Shown one piece after another: positions 5,943 through 31,506 of a stretch of DNA of 34,630 nucleotides. The notes under the pieces were generated by a model. That model was not told where the DNA came from. It saw nothing but the letters and a program-made list of their open reading frames with translations, and did no database searches. Position 1 is the stretch's first letter. Each line of letters begins with the position of its first letter. Both the position numbers and the translations under genes were made by a program. This stretch comes from Clostridiales bacterium. Its GTDB lineage: Bacteria > Bacillota > Clostridia > Lachnospirales > Lachnospiraceae. The DNA lies in assembly GCA_012519195.1 (NCBI GenBank), contig JAAYQP010000234.1, forward strand, positions 1 to 34,630, given 5' to 3'.

Positions 5943-6063
5943 GAAATTAAGTTGAAAGATCATAGGAATTAATTATAATGATAGATAACCAATAATTATC
6001 ATGCAAACTTCGCTCAGAAACTAGGTTATTCTGTAATTAAATTTTGCGATCTAACTAGATTTG
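5943..6063. repeat. Foldback element copy C with partial conserved core TGCAAACTTCGCTCAGAAAC
   Basis: Core at 6002-6021 shared with 17403-17425 and 30708-30727; imperfect arms AGATC..AATTAATTA..ATAACC / GGTTAT..TAATTAAATT..GATCT. Confidence 0.6.
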
Positions 6064-17302: not shown

Positions 17303-17496
17303 AAACCATTATAACAAGCAACTTTATTGATCCTTGCAAAACTTGTGGGATAGCTAAACCTTCTATACAACAGATTCAAAGACTTCGCTCCGTGGCGAGT
17401 GCAGACGCAAACTTTGCTCAGAAATTGCGTGTGTTGTTCATGAAGTTGTAAAATAATAAAGTTTTGCAAGTATATAAGTAGATTTATTATAGCAAA
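17303..17496. repeat. Foldback element copy A with conserved core 17387-17425; inner arms CTTGCAAAACTT 17333-17344 / AAGTTTTGCAAG 17459-17470
   Basis: Perfect 12-bp inner arms, degenerate outer arms; core GCTCCGTGGCG-N8-CGCAAACTTTGCTCAGAAAT. Confidence 0.65.
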
Positions 17497-29955: not shown

Positions 29956-30633
29956 TTGCTAAGTAGAGAAGACCTGTCGTTCATCCAAGATACCCTGAGC
30001 TTTTGGAAAAATCTTAATAAGGAACAAAAGAAGCTACTGGAGCATGCCTTGGTTAAAAAGCAATTTAATGTGGGAGAATCCATGAGGGGTAATTCGGAAT
30101 ATTGTGCAGGACTATTTTTGATCCAGCAAGGTCAGGTAAGGGCTTATATTATTTCTGAGAGTGGTAAAGAAATCACTTTATATCGCCTATTTGATAGGGA
30201 TGTTTGCATCTTTTCTGCTTCCTGTATTTTAAAAAATATTAATTTTGATATCTTTGTTGAAGTTGAAAAAGAAACAAAAGCCTTTCTAATTCCAACTGCC
30301 TCCTTTCTAAAGCTCTCAAAAGAATCGATTGCAGTTCAGTCATTTACTAATGATTTAATGGCTTCTCGCTTTTCTGAGGTTATGTGGATCATGGAGCAGG
30401 CCTTATTTACAAGCTTTGATAAAAGGTTGGCTAATTTCTTACTAGATCAGATTGCGATTGAGGAAAGTAATACTTTGAAAGTCACCCATGAACGGATTGC
30501 CAACGACCTGGGAACGGCGAGGGAAGTGGTAACTAGAATGCTGAAGTATTTTCAAAGTGAGGGGATCGTCGAACTGAATCGTAAAACCGTAAAGATACTG
30601 GATGAAAATAAACTGTATCAGCTCACTCAGTAA
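29956..30633 (+). CDS. Crp/Fnr-family transcriptional regulator
   Basis: cNMP-binding-like N-term (LFLIQQGQVRAYIISESGKEITLYRLFDRDVC); HTH VTHERIANDLGTAREVVTRMLKYFQSEGIVEL. Confidence 0.92.
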   Translation: MLSREDLSFIQDTLSFWKNLNKEQKKLLEHALVKKQFNVGESMRGNSEYCAGLFLIQQGQVRAYIISESGKEITLYRLFDRDVCIFSASCILKNINFDIFVEVEKETKAFLIPTASFLKLSKESIAVQSFTNDLMASRFSEVMWIMEQALFTSFDKRLANFLLDQIAIEESNTLKVTHERIANDLGTAREVVTRMLKYFQSEGIVELNRKTVKILDENKLYQLTQ

Positions 30634-30641
30634 ACAAATCA

Positions 30642-30767
30642 ATGCGATATAAACCATAATAATATAAACAAGATATACTAATTTCCTTGCTCCGTGGCGT
30701 GTATGCACGCAAACCTCGCTCAGAAATAGTATATCTTGTATATAATATGGATTAATAAGTATCGCAA
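30642..30767. repeat. Foldback element copy B with conserved core 30689-30727; perfect 13-bp inner arms 30668-30680 / 30727-30739
   Basis: ACAAGATATACTA / TAGTATATCTTGT, imperfect outer arms out to GCGATA / TATCGC. Confidence 0.8.
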
Positions 30768-30804
30768 TAATCTACACACAGTAATAACCGGAAGGAGAAA
30801 GTAT

Positions 30805-31506
30805 ATGGACAATGCACAGTTGATCCGGCAACGATTAATAGAATTGTCAGAGGAGCAATATCGGGCATTTTCGGCCTCCCTGACACCGGGTAAAAAGAAT
30901 ATCCTTGGCGTACGCCTACCGAAACTTAGAAAATTAGCCGGGGAGATCGTTAAGGAAGATTGGCGGACATATCTTAGTCAAGCCTCGGATGAATCGATGG
31001 AAGAGGTATTATTGCAAGGGATGGTAATTGGGAAGTGTAAGACAGATATTGAAGAGCTTCTAACTCTTGTAGCAAGATTTATTCCTAAGATTGATTGCTG
31101 GCCGGTATGCGACAGTTTTTGCAGTAGCTTAAAGATGGTTCATCAATATCGTGAGCGTTTTTGGGAATTCTTACAGCCTTATCTTTTATCCGATCAGGAA
31201 TATGAGATACGATTTGGCGTCGTAATGCTACTAAATTACTATGTATTGCCGGAATATGCCCCTGCCGCCTTCCATCATTTTGATCGTATAAAACATGAAG
31301 GATACTATGTTAAGATGGCAGTTGCCTGGGCGATATCAATCTATTTTATAAAACTCCAGGAGGAAACCTTTGCCTACCTCAAAAACAATAAATTAGATGA
31401 TTTCACATACAACAAAGCTCTTCAAAAGATTACCGAATCATTAAGGGTAGATAAAGAAACGAAGGAAATAATCCGGAGTATGAAGCGAAAGAATACCCTA
31501 TCCTAA
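30805..31506 (+). CDS. DNA alkylation repair protein (AlkD-like HEAT repeat)
   Basis: GVRLPKLRKLAGEI, WPVCDSFCSSLK, EIRFGVVMLLNYY, VKMAVAWAISIYF; start ATG 30805 after AAGGAG. Confidence 0.85.
   Translation: MDNAQLIRQRLIELSEEQYRAFSASLTPGKKNILGVRLPKLRKLAGEIVKEDWRTYLSQASDESMEEVLLQGMVIGKCKTDIEELLTLVARFIPKIDCWPVCDSFCSSLKMVHQYRERFWEFLQPYLLSDQEYEIRFGVVMLLNYYVLPEYAPAAFHHFDRIKHEGYYVKMAVAWAISIYFIKLQEETFAYLKNNKLDDFTYNKALQKITESLRVDKETKEIIRSMKRKNTLS

Follow-up and report, generated by a model that had tools for sequence, protein, structure and literature searches.

The region 30642–30767 of the window, that is, of the 34,630-nt stretch of Lachnospiraceae DNA analyzed here, raises the question of why a core of about 39 nt should recur three times at the apex of inverted-repeat arms that had been taken to be unrelated between the copies. 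The initial annotation proposed either a structured RNA family with covarying stems or a foldback module of mobile DNA by which flanking sequence is copied in inverted form. In our assessment, the three loci, termed B, A, and C, are very probably decayed copies of a MITE with a probable parent insertion sequence (IS). This MITE is a non-coding element of ~149 bp in which 16-bp terminal inverted repeats (TIRs) enclose a long imperfect hairpin, and which thus brings its own arms.

The window copies and their family

The core of B lies at 30689–30727 as originally placed, and our recount likewise gave 32 of 39 positions identical to 17387–17425; its 3' half is also present in C, but there the match covers 6003–6020 rather than 6002–6021. 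An 18-mer of the core, GCAAACYTYGCTCAGAAA, matches the window three times versus 0.11 expected matches. When the 3' half of the core was used to query the bacterium's own genome (G000; 3.04 Mb in 320 contigs), 28 matches were obtained as opposed to a single one for the reversed-pattern control, extending the core well beyond the three window copies. All three of the latter are on the + strand, but the 28 are divided into 16 forward and 12 reverse, so the uniform orientation in the window is attributable to chance. A covariance model (R1) built from 14 copies identified about 45 loci in the own genome (71 matches with both strands counted, the double matches arising because the element is nearly palindromic).

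Beyond the core, the aligned own-genome copies have a stem in common, TTTTATATACAACATATAC ... GTATATGTTGTATATAAAA, and carry TIRs of the form AGATAATTGCGAAACT ... AGTTTCGCAATTATCT (family TIR of 16 bp, AGGYAATTGCGAAACT), identifying the core as the apex of a dispersed element of ~150 bp. The arms derive from a single conserved stem and the TIRs and have diverged between copies, which refutes the notion of unrelated arms: the B arm ACAAGATATACTA differs by one base from the family arm ACAACATATACTA, and the A arm CTTGCAAAACTT is part of the family TIR. The earlier impression resulted from the comparison of only three diverged copies. The annotated span of B falls inside the element, but TIR homology enlarges the latter to 30636–30773. 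The features are as follows.

30636–30773, + strand: element B, full-length, diverged copy of the probable hairpin MITE, 138 bp (R1, 138 bits, E 5e-22; TIR homology; RNA fold)
30636–30651, + strand: left TIR of B, AAATCAATGCGATATA, a decayed form of AGATAATTGCGAAACT (family alignment)
30758–30773, − strand: right TIR of B, AGTATCGCAATAATCT as read on the + strand (family alignment)
30662–30685, + strand: left arm of the interior stem of B (fold)
30723–30746, + strand: right arm of the interior stem of B (fold, family alignment)
30686–30726, + strand: conserved apex of B, corresponding to the initially annotated core (family alignment)
30624–30633, no strand: left copy of the B target duplication, decayed, CACTCAGTAA (shift 13, p = 0.005 versus shuffled flanks)
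30775–30784, no strand: right copy of the B target duplication, CACACAGTAA (shift 13, p = 0.005)
29956–30633, + strand: Crp/Fnr-family regulator gene of the host, upstream of B (PF13545, PF00325)
30805–31506, + strand: DNA alkylation repair gene of the host, downstream of B (PF08713)
17328–17475, + strand: element A, decayed full-length copy, 148 bp, TIRs TGATCCTTGCAAAACT / AGTTTTGCAAGTATAT (R1, 92 bits, E 4e-13)
5982–6052, + strand: element C, badly decayed copy with uncertain ends; the secure part is the 3' half of the apex, 6003–6020

The left duplication copy of B, CACTCAGTAA, holds the stop codon of the upstream Crp-family gene. Target duplications at A (p = 0.09) and C were not significant, and the arms of the badly decayed C could not be confidently assigned. 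Self-complementarity, initially ascribed to each copy, holds for B (−41 kcal/mol, z −7.4 versus shuffles) but is not significant for A (z −1.6) and C (z −1.1).

Nine of the 28 own-genome copies are reduced to the stretch running from the apex to the right end (L004, L005, L015, L018, L021, L022, L026, L027, L028), with a break 0–3 nt before GCAAACTT; the places carrying the left part of the core are full-length model matches. Part of the constancy of this break stems from how the search pattern was chosen. A short subfamily with a left TIR of its own was considered and rejected, as a left TIR is present in only one of the nine.

Mobility and the probable parent insertion sequence

Direct target duplications of ~12–14 bp flank 74 of 111 copies (67%), compared with 2.2% when flanks were shuffled between copies; the shifts are concentrated at 13–15, and the target copies are 81% AT versus 67% further out. 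An empty site was found at one locus in another species, the congener G006, where a short spacer without the element separates the two genes that flank B. The element is thus dispersed, species-specific at its sites, and duplicates ~12–14 bp of AT-rich target upon insertion. Taken together, dispersed copies with common TIRs, direct target duplications, an empty site, small size, and lack of coding capacity are the hallmarks of a MITE.

Within the window there is indeed no transposase, as stated initially; one that matches is encoded elsewhere in the genome. Family TIRs delimit both ends of IS1182-like insertion sequences of 1.75–1.79 kb, found on two viral contigs (L220, L228), in three copies in the same-family genome G259, and on the Butyrivibrio plasmid pCY360. 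TIRs are present at L220, L228, L250, L259, L260, and L261, and target duplications at all of these but L228; none was seen at L228 or L262. The duplications have shifts of 12, 13, 14, 15, and 16, the last being a perfect 16/16, and this 12–16-bp range is the one seen for the MITE. The transposases resemble those of the IS1182 family in carrying DUF772 (PF05598) and in a C-terminal match to NF033551, as do the elements in their TIRs and length, but the NF033551 scores, 23.5–72.7 bits, fall far short of the curated threshold of 270, for which reason we term the transposase IS1182-like.

The own-genome representative (G000:C254:5860-7266) is a 484-aa frame without stops, 40% identical to the transposase at L228, between diverged TIR-like ends (AACCGTTTGCGAAACG / AGGCGATTGCGAAATG) 1757 bp apart; its contig terminates 4 bp beyond the right end, so a duplication cannot be seen there. 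G006 harbors a decayed IS relic ending in an exact TIR. There is thus an autonomous partner that matches the MITE in its ends and in the length of the duplications, albeit with diverged ends in the own-genome relative, and an intact IS and an intact MITE with identical TIRs were not found together in any single genome. Since ends and duplication length are common to both, we infer mobilization in trans: an IS1182-like transposase probably moves the MITE by cutting at the TIRs and inserting it with a 12–16-bp stagger, mostly at sites just upstream of genes. Because its interior bears no relation to the IS sequence, the MITE is not simply an IS with an internal deletion. Two candidates for an autonomous element in G006 and Anaerocolumna sedimenticola, obtained from TIR pairs 0.5–5 kb apart, turned out to be the ends of neighboring MITEs, and most TIR matches on viral contigs were dismissed as single chance matches.

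Compensatory changes in the interior hairpin

MITE interiors are usually regarded as passive. Here, compensatory changes preserve the hairpin of a non-coding interior across genera despite the turnover of its letters. For 15 representatives with little interior similarity, the median score for pairing of an arm with its own partner was 40, versus 13 with the arms of other families. In the cross-species alignment, which comprises 15 sequences and about nine genomes, both partners have changed at 15 of 26 interior pairs; covariation amounted to 0.397 versus 0.148 ± 0.017 for shuffled alignments and at most 0.150 for slid structures, a large margin over both controls, bearing in mind that a structure drawn from the same sequences favors the unslid version and that kinship alone can beat shuffles. 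Among 30 Anaerocolumna-type copies, covariation was evident at 14 pairs, with 23 cells versus 5.1 expected. The same kind of change is found in B, where ATCTTGT pairs with ACAAGAT in place of the family's ACAACAT/ATGTTGT, both sides having changed. The interior hairpin is thus kept by compensatory changes between species and among Anaerocolumna copies. Covariation in 14 own-genome copies did not exceed that of shuffles (0.091 versus 0.092), so the role of the hairpin is deduced from other species. Our reading is that pairing is maintained as DNA in spreading lineages and lost in resident copies, and that it may be upheld either by a benefit to transposition or by arm-to-arm template switching in young copies.

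Covariation is the usual mark of structured RNA, and the covarying stems postulated at the outset were indeed found, between species and within Anaerocolumna; nothing, however, points to a function of the RNA. If the hairpin worked in transcripts as a leader, sRNA, or mRNA stabilizer and its fold were selected, the strong cross-species covariation, that among the Anaerocolumna copies, and the location near gene starts would all fit. Yet no Rfam family matched in the window at gathering score, a loose threshold gave nothing beyond chance-level matches for the copy L012, and G-U was not preferred over A-C, neither in transcription-oriented copies (132 versus 132, where recent neutral decay dominates the mismatches and weakens the test) nor in the cross-species stem (11 versus 29). 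Moreover, orientation relative to genes showed no significant bias, the own-genome copies decay without compensation, and TIRs, target duplications, and the IS already explain the distribution, which makes an RNA family very improbable. The family rather illustrates that covariation can arise from mobile DNA.

Concerning the nature of this mobile DNA, the second idea of the initial annotation stands insofar as TIRs, target duplications, the empty site, and a matching IS attest to mobility, but not with respect to inverted flank copying. A foldback module that makes new arms from adjoining DNA at each insertion was suggested only by the seemingly unrelated arms; with arms that align across copies and species and duplications outside the TIRs that are direct rather than inverted, this proposal is already refuted, and we grant it next to no probability. 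A REP-like element moved as a single-strand hairpin by a Y1 (HUH) transposase would likewise be palindromic, intergenic, and present in high copy number. To our knowledge, however, direct target duplications of 12–14 bp are not expected for Y1 elements, and their presence, together with a TIR-sharing transposase of the DUF772/IS1182-like type, renders this origin extremely unlikely.

Within the framework of a MITE, the fold may be an unselected by-product of quasi-palindrome correction, in which template switching during replication carries changes from one arm over to the other. Such correction is known for long imperfect palindromes, and several of the Anaerocolumna double changes occur in single copies, in line with this possibility. 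Own-genome copies, some of them very diverged, have nevertheless not been homogenized, so arm correction cannot be constant; a by-product hairpin is a serious contender to which we assign somewhat less than an even chance. That the hairpin is instead kept because it helps transposition as DNA is an option we hold tentatively. In such a scenario, extrusion of the hairpin or a cruciform could allow the two TIRs, separated by only ~117 bp, to meet, selection during spread would maintain pairing while the letters drift, and resident copies would then decay neutrally, as in the own genome. The further-reaching proposal that the hairpin functions in transposition itself, defining a structure-dependent class of MITE with an IS1182-like transposase and an unusual 12–16-bp stagger, is less likely than not. 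With a probable parent transposase identified, it can now be tested directly what internal structure contributes to MITE movement.

Distribution, related elements, and size variants

The covariance model detected copies in 6 of 12 congeners and in none of 8 genomes from other families of the order. A TIR-pair search blind to the interior revealed the element in Anaerocolumna, Mobilisporobacter, Acetatifactor, Lachnospira, Roseburia, and other Lachnospiraceae assemblies, the same TIRs bounding elements of ~149 bp in Anaerocolumna, Mobilisporobacter, and other assemblies of the family; 85 of 111 copies fall into a length peak of 148–150 bp. Placement was analyzed for 62 copies, mostly from Lachnospiraceae assemblies, with mechanically called open reading frames. 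Only three overlap a frame of at least 120 aa; 47 lie between tandem, 13 between divergent, and one between convergent genes, at a median distance of 34 bp to gene starts. The family thus marks many promoter-proximal sites in Lachnospiraceae, owing either to target preference or to selection. Flanks of the 111 copies are pyrimidine-rich at positions −20 to −17, outside the target duplication, as expected if many copies sit just upstream of ribosome-binding sites.

No description of the family was found in Rfam and the open-access literature searched. It nonetheless represents a known kind of element, unusual in its duplication length for an IS1182-like transposase and in its compensatory interior hairpin. 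The bcr1 element of Bacillus cereus, ERIC, Correia, and RUP are imperfect palindromes of ~100–160 bp that occur between genes in many copies; they are similar in length, palindromic character, and copy number but differ in their short target duplications (TA or 5 bp).

Comparable with respect to the partner are the ISMac2-derived, IS1182-family MITEs of Methanosarcina acetivorans (160 and 169 bp), which are alike in length, TIR bounds, and an IS1182-family partner (PMC3852290). The inverted repeats given there are 25–26 bp and the direct repeats 4 or 0 bp, as opposed to 16-bp TIRs and 12–16-bp duplications here, and the passages on these MITEs mention no conserved hairpin, which is present in our family (PMC3852290). 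ISPse1 of Paracoccus also generates a 4-bp repeat (PMC3281130), as noted for one of the ISMac2 MITEs (PMC3852290), unlike the 12–16 bp observed here.

Some loci deviate from the standard format. A Zetaproteobacteria MAG contig (L129) carries a palindrome of 159 bp whose ends resemble AGCCAATTGCGAAACT and whose interior is unrelated; misbinning, chance, or distant relationship could account for it. Since this palindrome is probably unrelated or due to chance, it was excluded from the arm comparison. In a match of ~212 bp in G001 (L064), family TIRs surround another hairpin of much greater length, TTTCTTGTGCAAGTTTAACAA ... TTGTTAAACTTGCACAAGA. Additional size classes in G006 retain the family TIRs, namely 188–189 bp (L087, L091, L095, L100) and 83 bp (L098); the latter contains a different hairpin, AGAAAATTCGCAAAGCGTACTTTCT, which is also present, as an additional hairpin, in one or more of the 188-bp elements.
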